DNA of 63,850 bases from NCBI GenBank assembly GCA_013214575.1, contig JABSSD010000218.1, positions 1 to 63,850 of the forward strand. Direction: 5' to 3'. The notes beneath the pieces were generated by a model. It searched no databases, was not told the DNA's origin, and worked only from the letters and a program-made list of their open reading frames with translations. Below, one piece after another: positions 52,160 to 58,978 of the stretch; positions within the stretch are counted from its first letter, which is position 1, and each line of letters opens with the position of its first letter. This DNA is from Paracoccaceae bacterium (lineage in GTDB: Bacteria > Pseudomonadota > Alphaproteobacteria > Rhodobacterales > Rhodobacteraceae). A program made the translations under genes and the position numbers.

Positions 52160-52552
52160 TCACGACGCAGTAAATTCCACCCAGGCCCATACCATGGCCA
52201 GATAGGTAAAGTGATGCAGCGCCTGATCGGTTCCCATCGCGCGCCAGAACCCCGCCATATTCGGCATCAGTTGTTTGGAGTGGGAATACCTTGCTTTGCA
52301 GTAATCAATGTTGAAATGAACAAACCACTCCAGCGCGCAAATGATCAGTATGAACGCCACCGGTGTCTGGAAAGCCAGAAAGACCAGTATCGACCCCAAA
52401 ACATGCACGCCGGCGTGCTGCGCCCGCCCCAGGTGAAAATACACGCCGCGTCCGCATAGCATTTTGGGTGTTTGCAAATAGAAATCAGCAAACATGTGCT
52501 TGACCTGCAGCAGGCCCAACAGCAGCAGAACAGATCCGACATAGTCCGGCAA
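52160..52552 (-). CDS. DUF3307 membrane protein
   Basis: A 130-residue membrane protein. FADFYLQTPKMLCGRGVYFH and QHAGVHVLGSILVFLA, then ALEWFVHFNIDYCKARYS, belong to DUF3307, where His and Asp residues inside helices are conserved. Four membrane helices. It starts at a TTG with AGGAG 8 bases upstream, which fixes the start. Function unknown; some relatives are encoded next to SatD but no such gene is here. Confidence 0.8.
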   Translation of the reverse strand: MPDYVGSVLLLLGLLQVKHMFADFYLQTPKMLCGRGVYFHLGRAQHAGVHVLGSILVFLAFQTPVAFILIICALEWFVHFNIDYCKARYSHSKQLMPNMAGFWRAMGTDQALHHFTYLAMVWAWVEFTAS

Positions 52553-52719: not shown

Positions 52720-52733
52720 GGAGGCCTTCCATC
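52720..52733 (+). promoter_or_regulatory. ribosome site before an ATC start codon
   Basis: GGAGG at 52,720-52,724 is followed after six bases by ATC at 52,731. The frame upstream is closed by TAG at 52,710 and contains no ATG, GTG or TTG between that stop and 52,731. This decides the start of the next gene. Confidence 0.6.
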
Positions 52734-55700
52734 GAACGCTCTCTTTTCCGTTTTATCTGGAAGTACTCGAAACGTGACCAGCTGGTTCTGCTGCTGATCA
52801 CCACCACTCTGTTCCCGCTGCTGTACCTGACGCTTGAATTGCCCAAGCGGATAATCAACGACGCCATTGGCGCGCAAAGCTCCACCGTTGATGTGCTGGG
52901 CCGCTCGGTGGATCAGCTGACATTCTTATGGTTGCTGTGCTCGGGGTTTCTGCTGGCGGTGACGGCGCATGGCCTGATGAAAATGCGTATCAACACCCTG
53001 AAGGGGATATTGGCCGAGCGCATGTTGCGTCGGTTTCGCTACCAGTTGATTGCCCGGGTGCTGCGCTTTCCACAGCCCTACTTTGAGCGGATCAGTCAGG
53101 GCGAACTGGTGTCGATGATCACCGCCGAAAGCGAGCCGATGGGCGGCCTGATGGGCGACGCGATCAGCCAGCCTGTGTTGCAAGCCGGGCAAATGATCAC
53201 CATCCTGACGTTCCTGTTTCTGCAAAACGTCTGGTTTGGTGCTGCCGCCGTTGCCCTGATCCCCTTGCAGGGCTGGTTGATTCCAGTGCTGCAGCGGCGC
53301 ATCAACCTGTTGAACAAGAAACGTATCAAACAGGTTCGCGCCTTGGCCGCCGAGATCGGAGAGAGCGCCGTCGGCGCCTCGACGTTGCGGATCAACGGCG
53401 GCTGGCGCTATCGCATGGCGGTTATCACCACCCGCTTGGGCCGGTTGTATGACATTCGCCTCGAGATCTACCAGAAAAAGTTCTTCATGAAGTTTATCAA
53501 CAACTTCATCACCCAGCTGACGCCGTTTTTATTCTATGCGATTGGCGGCTACCTGGTGCTGCAGGGCTCGGTCTCACTGGGCGCGCTAGTGGCAGCCTTG
53601 GCGGCCTACAAGGACCTTGCCTCGCCGTGGAAAGAGCTATTGGCCTATTACAACCAGACCCAGGATATGGCCCTGCGCTGGGAGGTGATTTTGGAACGGT
53701 TTGCACCTTCGGGCATGATTGATGAGACATTGATGGAGGGTGAACCCGAGGATTTGGTGCACCTGAAGGGAGACGTGGTTCTGACCAATGTCAGCGTCCG
53801 GGATGCCGATGGTAATTTGGTGCTGGAGGATCTCAGCGCCCGCCTGCCGGCTGGCAAGGTGGTTGGAATCGCGGCACCGTCAGAGGAAGACCGCCGCGCC
53901 ATGGCCGAGCTTTTGACCCGCGAGTTGCTGCCCTCGGCGGGCAGTGTTTTTATTGCGGGACATGATCTGACCAAGCTGCATCAGGCGGTGATTGCGACGC
54001 GTATCGGCCATGCGACATCGCGCCCAGTGCTGTTTCAGGGGTCGTTTGGCGACAATGTCATGATGCCGATGCGGCGACGCCCCACCGGGGTTGCCGGCGA
54101 CAGCGAACAGTTCGAGAAGGCGCAGAAGGCCGGGAACAGCCCCGACCCGCAGGATACCCGCTGGCTTGATCCGTCGGTAGCCGGGTTTTCGAGTGAGGCT
54201 GAATTGCGCGATTGGTGGCTGCAGCTGGTCGAAGGCATTGGCTCGGACACCGCCCTGTTCCGGCGCGGAATGGAGCAGCGGTTTGATCCCAAAACCCACC
54301 CTATTCTGGGCGCCCATCTGGTGCAGTTGCGGGATCAGGTTCAGCAAGCGGTGCGCGACGCTGGGCTGCGCCAGCATGCATTTTTCCTGAACCCGGATCA
54401 CTATAACCCGGCGCTGCCTGTGGCGGAAAACCTGTTGTATGCGACTCCACATGAGCCAATCACCGAAACGGTTTTGGCAAAACAGACGGAGTTTCTCGAC
54501 CTGATCAAAGAGCTGAAGCTGGACGAAGACCTGGTGGCCCTGACTCAGGACGTGGTGGATATGCTGCGGCAGATTTTTGGGCTCGATGGCACCGACCACC
54601 CTCTGTTTCGCAAGCTAGGGCTAGAGCCTTCAGCCTATGAGGTGGCGCTTTCGCTGGTTGAAAAGACCCGCTCCAAGGGCGCGGGCGCTTTGGATCACAA
54701 GGAACTGGCGCAACTGTTGATCGTGCCATTCCGGATCTCGGCGGAACAAATCGGCCCGGCCTTTAGTGAGGACATGCAGAGCCGTATTTTGGCCTTCAGG
54801 AAAAGCCACTCAACCCGGTTGATGGCCACCCTGGGGGACCTGTTCGTGCCGCTGGATATTGATAGTTTTGCGCCGGGATTGACGGTTCTGGAAAACGCCC
54901 TGTTTGGTAAGATTTCAGACCTGGCCGGCGGCAAGGGGGATGAACTTCGCAAACTGGTCTCCGAATTACTGGTGCAAAATGGGGTGCGCGATTTGGTGGT
55001 CGAGTTGATTTTTGAATTGCCGATTGCTCTGGGCGGCCAGGGGCTGGCGGCCAGTTTTGCTGAACCACTGGCCTTTTCCCGCGCCACCATCAAGCGGCCC
55101 GATATCCTGATCATGGACAGTGCAATGTCCAGCTATGATTTGGAAACCCGCATCTCGGTGCATAAGAACCTGCGTAAACTGCTGCCAGACACCACCGTGA
55201 TTTATCTAAGCGACAGCTTTGAGAGCCCAGAGGTGTTCGATGTCTATTACGAGCTGCGACAGGGTCGGCTGGTCAGTGATGAGGCGCAGAAGGTGGCTGT
55301 TGAGGACGGCGCCGCCAGTGCGGATCTGGCGCGCAAACTCAGGGCGTTGGAGCAGACTGAACTGTTTTCGGGATTGAACCGGCGTCAATTGCGGCTGCTG
55401 GCCTTTGGTGCGCGCTGGTATCAGGCTGCTGCCGGCGAGGTGGTGTTTCTGAAAGACGATGATGCCAGTGACGGCGCCTATATGATCCTCGAGGGTGAGG
55501 CCGGCCTGTACTTGCCCATCGACGGACAGGACGACCGGCTGATCGCCAGTGTGGGGTCCGGCCGGCTGGTGGGCGAATTGGGGTTGATACGCAAGGAGCC
55601 GCGGTCGCTGAGCATGATTGCAAAAACCGATCTGACCTGCCTTCGTATCGGTGAAGAAGAGTTTTTTGCGGTGGTTGAGAACGACGCGGCGACTGCCTTT

Positions 55701-55739
55701 AGGCTGTTGCAGGTGGTCGCCGGATACGTGTCCAATTGA
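52731..55739 (+). CDS. ABC-exporter-like protein with dead ATPase and cyclic-nucleotide-binding domain
   Basis: About 1002 residues if it begins at the ATC codon (first residues then read ERSLFRFIWKYSKRDQ). Layout: six-helix ABC exporter membrane domain (to about 330); a nucleotide-binding domain that lacks the Walker A lysine (VVGIAAPSEEDRRAMAELL, about 377-395), has a 280-residue insertion, a signature-like LGGQGLAASF and Walker B DILIMDSAMSSYD with Ser for the catalytic Glu; and no switch histidine. A cyclic-nucleotide-binding domain at 872-1002 follows, with the phosphate cassette VGELGLIRKEPRSLSMIAKT. It is unlikely to be a working ATP pump; it may be a sensor or structural protein. Stands alone between DUF3307 and the enolase-superfamily gene. 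The first conventional in-frame alternative is a TTG at 52,839. Confidence 0.8.
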   Translation: MERSLFRFIWKYSKRDQLVLLLITTTLFPLLYLTLELPKRIINDAIGAQSSTVDVLGRSVDQLTFLWLLCSGFLLAVTAHGLMKMRINTLKGILAERMLRRFRYQLIARVLRFPQPYFERISQGELVSMITAESEPMGGLMGDAISQPVLQAGQMITILTFLFLQNVWFGAAAVALIPLQGWLIPVLQRRINLLNKKRIKQVRALAAEIGESAVGASTLRINGGWRYRMAVITTRLGRLYDIRLEIYQKKFFMKFINNFITQLTPFLFYAIGGYLVLQGSVSLGALVAALAAYKDLASPWKELLAYYNQTQDMALRWEVILERFAPSGMIDETLMEGEPEDLVHLKGDVVLTNVSVRDADGNLVLEDLSARLPAGKVVGIAAPSEEDRRAMAELLTRELLPSAGSVFIAGHDLTKLHQAVIATRIGHATSRPVLFQGSFGDNVMMPMRRRPTGVAGDSEQFEKAQKAGNSPDPQDTRWLDPSVAGFSSEAELRDWWLQLVEGIGSDTALFRRGMEQRFDPKTHPILGAHLVQLRDQVQQAVRDAGLRQHAFFLNPDHYNPALPVAENLLYATPHEPITETVLAKQTEFLDLIKELKLDEDLVALTQDVVDMLRQIFGLDGTDHPLFRKLGLEPSAYEVALSLVEKTRSKGAGALDHKELAQLLIVPFRISAEQIGPAFSEDMQSRILAFRKSHSTRLMATLGDLFVPLDIDSFAPGLTVLENALFGKISDLAGGKGDELRKLVSELLVQNGVRDLVVELIFELPIALGGQGLAASFAEPLAFSRATIKRPDILIMDSAMSSYDLETRISVHKNLRKLLPDTTVIYLSDSFESPEVFDVYYELRQGRLVSDEAQKVAVEDGAASADLARKLRALEQTELFSGLNRRQLRLLAFGARWYQAAAGEVVFLKDDDASDGAYMILEGEAGLYLPIDGQDDRLIASVGSGRLVGELGLIRKEPRSLSMIAKTDLTCLRIGEEEFFAVVENDAATAFRLLQVVAGYVSN

Positions 55740-57178: not shown

Positions 57179-58978
57179 ATGAAAAAAGTGTTGGCTTACA
57201 GTTACTTGCGTATTAGTACAGATCAGCAGGTAGTCGGGGATGGCATTCGTCGTCAGATGGAAGCAAGCCAGAAGTACGCCAAAGACCACGATTACGAGCT
57301 TGTCGAGACGATACAAGACATAGGGATCAGCGCGTTCAAGGGTAAAAACGCAAAAGAGGGCGCGTTCGCTCAGTTTCTTGCAGCGATTGATGACGGGCGA
57401 GTCGCGCCGGGTAGCGTTCTAATTGTCGAGTCTCTTGACCGTATCTCTCGCGATGGGGCGCTGAAAGCGTTCGCTCAGTTTGGTGGAATCGTCACCAAAG
57501 GGATAACAATCGTCACTCTGATGGACGGGCAAGTCTATTCAGAAGACAGCATGGAGAAGAACCCCGGTCAGTTGTTCATGAGCATCGGCATTATGATGCG
57601 GGCGAACGAGGAATCTGAAACGAAGTCGAAGCGACTGAAAGCAGCTTGGCAGAAAAAACGAGATGACATCGAGGGCAAGAAGCTGAGTAAGAATATTCCA
57701 GCTTGGCTTGAACTGAGTGATGATCGAAAAGAATTCACAGTGAAAGAGAAGGCGGCTGAAACAATTCGAGAACTCTTTGATCTGAGTATAAACGGCATGG
57801 GCGTCTATTCGATCACTAGACACATGAACGAAAACCCCAAAAAATACCCGACGATTTCTGGCCAAAAAAGCTGGAACGAAAGCTACGTAATCAAGATACT
57901 GAAAACCCCTGCTGTTCACGGAAGTTTTCAACCGAGCACACGAGTTGACGGAAAGAAAATTCCAGCAGGTGATCCCACCAAAGATTACTTTCCAGTCGTC
58001 GTAAGCGAAGAGACTTTCTTTCTGGCTCAAAGCAGGCTGAAAGAGCGTAAGACGGGTGCTGGGCGCAAGGGCGAGAACTTCGCTAATCTATTCTCTAATA
58101 TATCGAAGTGTGGCTACTGCGGTGCAGGAATGCTTCATCGCAACAAGGGAAAACCACCCAGAGGTTACAGATATTTGAGATGCGCGAACGCGATCAAGAA
58201 CAACGGCTGTAAGTCGCCAGCTTGGCGTTATTCAGAATTTGAAGGGTTGTTCTATCAGTTCGTTCAAGAGGTCAATTTCTCTGATGTGTTAAGCGATGAT
58301 GGAAAAGACAGTCAAATCGCTATTCTGGAAAAACAAAAATCTTCGTCACTCGCTAAGTTGTCAGACTCGCAAACACAGTACGACGCTTTGATTGAACGAC
58401 TGACTAGTCCAGTCCTGTCTGACACGGTTCTGGAAAGTCTGGGCAAGAAAGCCGAAGAAATAGCTGAGTCAATAAAGCAACTGAAAAGCGATATCACCGA
58501 ACTAAACGTCAACACAGCCAGTGTGAGCGATGACGACGTAGAGCGCGATCAAGAGGATTTTCTAGCTGAGTACAAGAAACTTGAGGACGACCGGCCAGCA
58601 AGCGAGTTGAAGGCGATACGATTTCAGCTCCACGGACTTATCAAGCGCTCTATTGATCGTGTCACAGTCTATAATGATGCTCAGCTTGATCCGTGGGACA
58701 TCATGCAAACGACTGACGATGGCGAGGAAGTTCTTACAGGCGAGATATCAGACAAGTTTCTGGCGAAGCTGGACGAGCGCGGGTTAACAACGGTCAAGGA
58801 TATAGAGGATTACCTCTCAACTGGCTACGGACAGCGGGTCTACAAGCACTCACAACGATTTTTCAGGGTACACTTCAAAAATGGGACTGAACGCACTGTG
58901 AGGGCGTTTGAGAAGCAATCCCTGCTCACTCTATCCGAAAAACTGGCCGCGTTGAGGGCGAAGACAGTAGGCGCGTAA
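57179..58978 (+). CDS. large serine recombinase (integrase)
   Basis: A 599-residue site-specific recombinase. Residues 5-150 form the resolvase catalytic domain: YSYLRISTDQQVVGDGIRRQ has the nucleophile S13, and VLIVESLDRISRDGALKAFA the essential arginines. Then comes the recombinase domain (about 165-290), a zinc ribbon with C-x2-C and C-x7-C-like spacing (CGYCGAGMLHRN, LRCANAIKNNGC) near 312-345 and a coiled-coil tail. It should integrate and excise the element that begins just left of it. AGGGGT lies 8 bases upstream of the ATG. Codon use is AT-richer than in all genes to the left. Confidence 0.95.
   Translation: MKKVLAYSYLRISTDQQVVGDGIRRQMEASQKYAKDHDYELVETIQDIGISAFKGKNAKEGAFAQFLAAIDDGRVAPGSVLIVESLDRISRDGALKAFAQFGGIVTKGITIVTLMDGQVYSEDSMEKNPGQLFMSIGIMMRANEESETKSKRLKAAWQKKRDDIEGKKLSKNIPAWLELSDDRKEFTVKEKAAETIRELFDLSINGMGVYSITRHMNENPKKYPTISGQKSWNESYVIKILKTPAVHGSFQPSTRVDGKKIPAGDPTKDYFPVVVSEETFFLAQSRLKERKTGAGRKGENFANLFSNISKCGYCGAGMLHRNKGKPPRGYRYLRCANAIKNNGCKSPAWRYSEFEGLFYQFVQEVNFSDVLSDDGKDSQIAILEKQKSSSLAKLSDSQTQYDALIERLTSPVLSDTVLESLGKKAEEIAESIKQLKSDITELNVNTASVSDDDVERDQEDFLAEYKKLEDDRPASELKAIRFQLHGLIKRSIDRVTVYNDAQLDPWDIMQTTDDGEEVLTGEISDKFLAKLDERGLTTVKDIEDYLSTGYGQRVYKHSQRFFRVHFKNGTERTVRAFEKQSLLTLSEKLAALRAKTVGA

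Follow-up and report, generated by a model that had tools for sequence, protein, structure and literature searches.

In the 63,850-nucleotide contig JABSSD010000218.1 of a Paracoccaceae bacterium (assembly GCA_013214575.1; this whole stretch of DNA is hereafter called the window), the frame located at 52731-55739 of the forward strand contains 1002 open codons and encodes an ATP-binding cassette (ABC)-exporter-like protein. Its domain order is an ABC-exporter membrane domain, a nucleotide-binding domain (NBD)-like domain interrupted by an insert of ~280 residues, and a C-terminal cyclic-nucleotide-binding (CNB) domain. The features of the protein-coding part are the following:

52731-55739, forward strand: coding sequence of the ABC-exporter-like protein with CNB domain, 1002 codons plus stop (homologues, Pfam, dN/dS)
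52743-53705, forward strand: membrane domain, residues 5-325, with the highest conservation of the whole protein (Pfam, identity, AlphaFold2 model)
53763-54071, forward strand: degenerate NBD, first part, residues 345-447 (alignment, model)
53865-53903, forward strand: Walker A remnant GIAAPSEEDRRAM, residues 379-391, without Lys and without a Gly-rich loop
54072-54971, forward strand: insert, residues 448-747, separating the Q-loop region from that of the signature (alignment, model)
54312-54650, forward strand: repeat module 2, residues 528-640, with VAENLL (hhalign versus module 3)
54744-55100, forward strand: repeat module 3, residues 672-790, with VLENAL, extending into the signature region (hhalign)
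54972-55313, forward strand: degenerate NBD, second part, residues 748-861 (alignment, model)
55101-55139, forward strand: Walker B remnant DILIMDSAMSSYD, residues 791-803, with Ser replacing the catalytic Glu
55197-55226, forward strand: H-loop remnant VIYLSDSFES, residues 823-832, with Asp in the His column
55338-55736, forward strand: C-terminal CNB domain, residues 870-1002 (Pfam, conservation, model)
55572-55607, forward strand: phosphate-binding cassette GELGLIRKEPRS, residues 948-959, with Gly, Glu and Arg each in 99/99 members of clade A (defined below)

An initial annotation, made from the sequence alone, had proposed an exporter-like protein with a CNB domain in this frame, and the Pfam analysis agrees with it: ABC_membrane (PF00664) was found at residues 41-290 (63.3 bits versus a cut-off of 28, E=3.9e-17) and cNMP_binding (PF00027) at residues 900-985 (54.2 bits versus 27.5, E=1.5e-14). 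ABC_tran (PF00005) was under its curated cut-off (15.7 versus 25 bits, E=0.024). In NCBIfam, 77 models were matched at E<=0.1, the top one being MsbA with 113.5 bits versus a cut-off of 602, and every model among the matches listed (25 of 77) was far under its own cut-off. The AlphaFold2 model, built with 106 family sequences, had a mean pLDDT of 88 and a pTM of 0.76, being weaker near residues 160-173 and 853-859, and its top Foldseek matches were ABC exporters, i.e., P-glycoprotein, TmrA (TMt 0.59) and PCAT1 (TMt 0.60). PF00664 and the fold search together identify the membrane domain as that of a type IV ABC exporter, while the profile match and a cassette with Glu and Arg identify the CNB (CRP-like) domain.

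To locate the nucleotide-binding motifs, we aligned the family. The profile of alignment A1 matched 305 open frames, of which 240 passed a length and score filter and 218 were distinct, including the window protein; split, truncated and low-scoring frames (e.g., L010, L014, L048, L183 and L190) were left out. This sample holds part of the matches in the class and over-represents roseobacters, 78 of the 99 clade A members coming from the 80 best loci. In a single FastTree tree, the window protein and its orthologues form clade A (n=99, support 0.95), which joins the paralogue clade B (A+B, n=112, support 1.0) within a clade of CNB-fused proteins (n=119, support 0.997); the other 99 members are unfused, except L218.

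The window protein lacks all four of the Walker A Lys, the Walker B Glu, the signature and the H-loop His. The initial annotation had already noted the losses of Lys, Glu and His; in the alignment, Arg occupies the Walker A Lys column in GIAAPSEEDRRAM, Ser sits in the Walker B Glu column (MDSAMSSYD), and the column of the switch His is Asp. In the AlphaFold2 model, a strand runs to residue 381 of the Walker A remnant and a helix starts from 385. The string LGGQG, which had been regarded as a retained signature, is indeed present, but it is ruled out as such by the 218-sequence alignment, where it lies just before the signature columns; these read LAASF, without Ser, GG or Gln, and G769 aligns with the Gly located ahead of the signature.

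The same columns were compared throughout the family. Taking clade A, clade B, the other fused members and the remaining members in this order, the Walker A Lys is present in 0/99, 0/13, 2/7 and 52/99 sequences; the Ser/Thr following it in 0/99, 5/13, 0/7 and 8/99; the Walker B Asp in 63/99, 10/13, 1/7 and 19/99; the Walker B Glu in 3/99, 0/13, 0/7 and 53/99; the H-loop His in 0/99, 0/13, 0/7 and 31/99; the signature Ser in 8/99, 0/13, 2/7 and 53/99; and the signature Gln in 0/99, 0/13, 4/7 and 89/99. Lys and Glu occur together in 36 of the 218 members and Lys, Glu and His in 16; only L229, with signature LSGAQ, combines Lys, Ser/Thr, Asp, Glu and His. On the tree, Lys requires at least 19 changes, Glu 14 and His 13 (one alignment, one tree), indicating that the motif changes recurred. 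Thus, at the sequence level, the nucleotide-binding motifs have disappeared in the window lineage and, on separate branches, in some other lineages. The homologue alignment that had been proposed as a check therefore shows losses common to the near relatives, Lys and His being absent from both clades A and B, and the window gene is not recently decayed. The notion of a conserved pseudo-transporter, for which a role as cyclic-nucleotide sensor or membrane organiser had been suggested as a possibility, holds for these near relatives and extends in part to the distant ones, about half of which keep the Lys. Since the distant relatives retain part of the motifs, the comparison indicates that the window gene represents an eroded branch within a wider family of ABC-exporter-like proteins found across Alphaproteobacteria.

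Full-length homologues with 89-98% identity were found in six of the seven other same-genus genomes; in the seventh (G002, 85% complete), the homologue is split over frames. Beyond the genus, the extent of this family was estimated with the A1 profile at E<=1e-60 on even genome samples, scoring few candidates per genome. A family match was present in 42/149 genomes of the order and, counting partial matches, in 132/385 genomes and 88/277 genera of the class. At the phylum level, 32/398 genomes had a match, 31 of them being the window genome itself or members of the same class, and the one match outside the class was membrane-domain-only. The window genome has one full-length family member at this threshold. 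At least 557 genome-contig stretches encode a relative, the best 80 including Zongyanglinia, Phaeobacter, Leisingera, Ruegeria and Tateyamaria, and 328 plasmid records match the family at E<=1e-40, chiefly from Rhizobium and Sinorhizobium. At one locus (L037), recorded as Nocardioides marinus, the copy is typical of roseobacters, with 78% identity, and the assembly is perhaps mislabelled or contaminated.

The ratios of nonsynonymous to synonymous substitution (dN/dS, Nei-Gojobori method) of 21 same-genus pairs had medians of 0.037 for the whole gene, 0.036 for the membrane domain, 0.042 and 0.045 for the NBD halves, 0.069 for the insert and 0.030 for the CNB domain, with a median dS >1, near saturation; the closest pair (G000 and G003) had a dN of 0.010 and a dS of 0.186. 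The window gene is real and under purifying selection in every part. The mean pairwise identity in clade A was 0.812 for the membrane domain, 0.751 for the CNB domain, 0.625 for the NBD and 0.567 for the insert, and the NBD identity exceeded that of the membrane domain in none of 1500 sampled pairs. For the remaining members, the membrane domain and NBD identities were 0.534 and 0.406, respectively, with the NBD being the more conserved in 3.2% of 1500 pairs. In 30 MsbA-like controls, the order was inverted (membrane domain 0.333, NBD 0.570; NBD higher in 94.5% of 435 pairs), although mixed paralogues among the controls may depress the identity of their membrane domain. The four motif patterns were canonical in 27 of the 30 controls, the Walker A by construction, since the control frames were selected by its pattern (30/30 loci gave a frame). 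Judging from these identities, the ATPase is no longer the focus of constraint, which has shifted to the membrane domain and the CNB domain, the membrane domain being more conserved than the NBD, the reverse of what is observed in the controls.

The C-terminal CNB domain has the well-formed phosphate cassette that had been claimed for it: GELGLIRKEPRS starts at residue 948, and its Arg is present in 119/119 members of the fused clade. Outside this clade, 89 of the 99 members are followed on the same strand by a CNB open reading frame (ORF) lying at most 1.5 kb away; one (L218) is fused, and no CNB ORF was found within that distance downstream of the other nine. In the separate CNB ORFs counted, the cassette Gly, Glu and Arg were all present (24/24). 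On this sequence evidence, a CNB protein that is mostly encoded by a nearby gene elsewhere has been fused to the C-terminus in the window lineage. The nucleotide-cyclase domain PF00211 is matched 14 times in the window genome, which makes a cyclic nucleotide a plausible ligand of the CNB domain.

The membrane domain also occurs in isolation. Among the same-genus, order, class and phylum matches, we picked 18 distinct places (19 loci, L189 being the same as L207) where open frames of 309-493 codons encode the membrane domain without an NBD, showing that the family membrane domain can persist without it. One such stand-alone domain (L019:5541-6467, reverse strand) lies in the window genome; further NBD-less loci are L020, L028, L029, L192-L204 and L207. 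An NBD-like frame was found only near L019 and L204, as a separate MsbA-like frame. In several of these relatives, the N-terminus is extended by a segment containing a WVHP..H-like motif.

The distance from the Q-loop to the signature is ~340 residues in the window protein. In ordinary ABC exporters, this distance is ~60 residues, so that the insertion of 280 residues reported in the initial annotation fits. Its modules 2 and 3 are homologous to each other over ~78 columns, both in unfused members (hhalign probability 98.8, E 7e-17) and in fused ones (97.6, E 4.9e-12), and a strand-helix-strand unit recurs in the AlphaFold2 model at residues 550-573 and 705-728. A single unrelated inserted domain is ruled out for these two modules, as they are mutual repeats. 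The normal post-Q-loop segment (module 1) resembles them more weakly in unfused members (probabilities of 93.2 across 22 columns and of 68.9 across 61); no such likeness was seen in fused members (5.3 and 4.2). The insert has thus likely, though not provably, arisen by triplication of this normal segment. A similar expanded NBD was observed in L190, L191 and L206, where the membrane domain preceding it is not recognised by the family profile.

The 5′ end of the gene is unusual in its proposed start codon, with two features:

52720-52724, forward strand: Shine-Dalgarno (SD)-like GGAGG, 6 nt ahead of the start codon
52731-52733, forward strand: proposed start codon ATC (AUA/AUC in 97/99 clade A members; onset of conservation; no in-frame ATG/GTG/TTG since the previous in-frame stop)

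ATC is a codon that very rarely serves as a start. From the previous in-frame stop, the window codons read TAG TCA TGT TGG AGG CCT TCC ATC GAA. The clade A codon aligned to Met1 of the relatives is ATA in 67 members, ATC in 30 and ATG in two (n=99), and the clade B start is ATG in 13/13. The GG at -11/-10 is jointly present in 91 of the 97 AUA/AUC members of clade A, the SD spacing being near-fixed, and 56 of the 97, including the window, have no in-frame ATG, GTG or TTG after the preceding stop. The frequency of the commonest residue does not exceed 0.45 anywhere in codons -20 to -1 but rises to 0.98 at codon 1. A start at TTG 52839 or farther downstream was rejected, given that conservation covers residues 1-20 and is missing from codons -20 to -1. 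An ordinary internal Ile codon was likewise discarded: within these genes, internal Ile is encoded by ATC in 72.5%, ATT in 24.0% and ATA in 3.5% of cases, versus 67 ATA and no ATT among the 97 codons at this position, although binomial figures for this contrast take no account of shared ancestry. The gene thus has a conserved proposed start of the AUU/AUC/AUA type with an SD sequence, like infC, whose start, placed by its conserved N-terminal motif, is ATA in 14 and ATC in six of 20/20 roseobacter genomes. We also compared the two starts within genomes: the start of the family gene is ATC in 4/4 cases where infC has ATC, and ATA in nine and ATC in four where infC has ATA (Fisher p 0.029). This co-variation is confounded by phylogeny and was not used.

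Around the gene, neighbours were grouped as single-linkage clusters of open frames and named from single representatives. A divergent gene lies upstream:

52160-52552, reverse strand: DUF3307 gene (PF11750, 33.0 bits versus a cut-off of 23)

A divergent DUF3307-type neighbour was found at 76 of the 78 clade A loci with flanks. At 50 unfused loci, the CNB cluster was present in 44, a downstream methyltransferase (representative PF12692, 194 bits versus a cut-off of 27) in 26, and two glycosyltransferase-like clusters, mostly divergent upstream, in 38 and 34; one glycosyltransferase-like representative matched PF00534 with 113 bits versus 26.4, and a similar-looking protein is encoded in L026, where a methyltransferase ORF separates the family gene from the CNB ORF. 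In the Sinorhizobium medicae plasmid pSMED01 (L319:4296-13191), an unfused member lies downstream of a run of glycosyltransferase-like ORFs, which were read by eye in an unannotated record; the protein match continues through the CNB part, and the next ORF is a methyltransferase. We take this last ORF to be FkbM-like. In the window, a large serine-recombinase-like ORF (57179-58978, forward strand, read by eye) lies directly beyond a mandelate racemase-like neighbour.

The architecture, motif losses, constraint, CNB association and start-codon conservation are established from sequence. Based on them, we propose that the window protein is an ATPase-dead, CNB-ligand-responsive gate, sensor or allosteric partner, a conserved family member with translation sensitive to initiation factor 3 (IF3), and we regard this proposal as about evenly poised between right and wrong. 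In such a protein, dimerisation would occur through the exporter-type membrane domain, and the NBD-like part, in which helical segments are repeated, would serve as a platform for structural coupling. Instead of ATP hydrolysis, the binding of a cyclic nucleotide, or of a different ligand of this fold, to the CNB domain would then shift the membrane domain, which would act as the ligand-controlled gate, sensor or allosteric partner. Its role might be in cell-surface glycan or lipid traffic, in the context of the unfused relatives, from which we infer the glycan context of the window gene. Synthesis of the protein would probably be kept low and tuned by IF3 via the AUA/AUC start codon. It is a more doubtful extension that, in Alphaproteobacteria at large, an exporter was converted into an ATP-independent membrane device run by a nucleotide second messenger, with the ATP sites lost as control passed to the CNB neighbour, which later became a fusion, and with roseobacters adding IF3 control via AUA/AUC.

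Several observations weigh against this proposal. The D-loop Asp is present in 100 of 120 fused proteins, which together with the Walker B Asp kept by 63 of the 99 clade A members suggests that part of the site geometry may persist; the window protein may bind ATP without hydrolysing it. No CNB-like frame was found near any of the 18 NBD-less places, and the membrane domain is therefore not always paired with a CNB partner. A cyclic nucleotide is not the obligatory ligand of a CNB fold, as that of HetC is described as binding ppGpp (PMC10986499), and the cassette Glu is replaced by Asp in 13/13 clade B members. The fused gene lies among DUF3307 and metabolic genes, and no glycan context was found there; the second glycosyltransferase assignment is weak (Glyco_tran_28_C, 19.5 bits versus a cut-off of 22). 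Additionally, the whole chain superposes poorly on exporters (TMq 0.22-0.37 among the 50 Foldseek matches listed), and 41 of the 97 AUA/AUC members do have an in-frame ATG, GTG or TTG upstream before the stop.

A possible, if doubtful, alternative is that of a scaffold or assembly factor, whose exporter-shaped body organises membrane enzymes such as glycosyltransferases and the DUF3307 protein and forms no conduit. The persistence of NBD-less relatives, the DUF3307 neighbour of nearly all clade A loci and the glycosyltransferase-like genes adjoining the unfused relatives are all consistent with it. Nevertheless, adjacency of genes is by itself weak evidence, and the membrane domain is the most conserved part, with 61% of its clade A positions conserved at 95% or more, seemingly beyond the need of a pure scaffold.

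It is unlikely that the protein is still an exporter, either with NBDs that bind ATP weakly or with a competent ABC half-transporter as partner, in a pair with one degenerate site. Heterodimers of this kind are described as common (PMC7756269), the distant L229 and the 36 members with Lys and Glu keep catalytic residues, and the window genome has MsbA-type exporters (five matches at E<=1e-80). However, the known degenerate sites described for ABCC1, ABCC7 and ABCC9 still bind ATP (PMC7756269), and the window protein has lost the P-loop Gly and Lys, the signature and the His. Paralogue B, the obvious type of partner, lacks Lys, Glu and His in 13/13 members, the window genome shows one full-length family member at E<=1e-60, and by eye none of the neighbouring ORFs is an ABC gene; a partner might yet be an unrelated ABC protein.

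Finally, a pseudogene or a gene in decay, as the missing catalytic motifs, the split homologue of G002 and a break in one metagenome-assembled genome (L048) could suggest, is almost certainly not the explanation and was ruled out, since the same-genus dN/dS contradicts decay and identical losses are shared by 99 orthologues, in which the Walker A remnant motif ApseEDRrA is itself largely conserved.

The family offers a graded loss of ATPase residues, from L229 with Lys, Ser/Thr, Asp, Glu and His to members with none of Lys, Glu and His, and these natural variants make an ATP-free function of an exporter membrane domain testable, with the CNB partner as the candidate signal input. With the AUA/AUC start, a membrane protein would join the few genes that have a conserved non-canonical start. 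Annotation can miss such a start: the public annotation of Ruegeria sp. TM1040 places the beginning of the protein at codon 18, 17 codons too far downstream by this reading. A proteogenomic study of Ruegeria pomeroyi is described as testing new starts against ATG, GTG and TTG (PMC3305630), and an AUA/AUC start would probably have gone unreported there. In the open-licence literature, we found no description of the window family or of its AUA/AUC start, and the term 'pseudo-ABC transporter' refers in one paper to SufBCD, not to this family.

The window protein resembles the type IV ABC exporters (MsbA, TmrAB, PCAT1 and P-glycoprotein) in membrane-domain sequence and fold, whereas it lacks their intact nucleotide site and carries a repeat-bearing insert and a C-terminal CNB domain. 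A CNB domain on an ABC exporter body is also known from the NHLM-type exporters. The same combination is described for HetC, where the CNB domain is required in vivo and ppGpp binding to it was observed in vitro (PMC10986499). In HetC, however, the CNB domain is N-terminal, a peptidase domain is present and an ATPase residue is essential (PMC10986499), while in the window protein the CNB domain is C-terminal, the ATPase motifs are lost, and the Pfam scan found no peptidase domain. With exporters having one degenerate site, the likeness lies in non-canonical catalytic motifs kept by selection; in those, the other site is active, and the degenerate one binds ATP in the cases described (PMC7756269), whereas here both paralogue clades have lost residues and the P-loop is gone. 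As for the start codon, infC and Streptomyces sigR share with the window gene a conserved start other than ATG, GTG or TTG with an SD sequence, and the AUA/AUC codons are the same as those of infC in the same genomes. IF3 control of the rare start has been shown for infC and sigR, among the very few such starts described as characterised (PMC5472188), and we infer it for the window gene. The products differ, infC and sigR encoding an initiation factor and a sigma factor, and the window gene a membrane protein.

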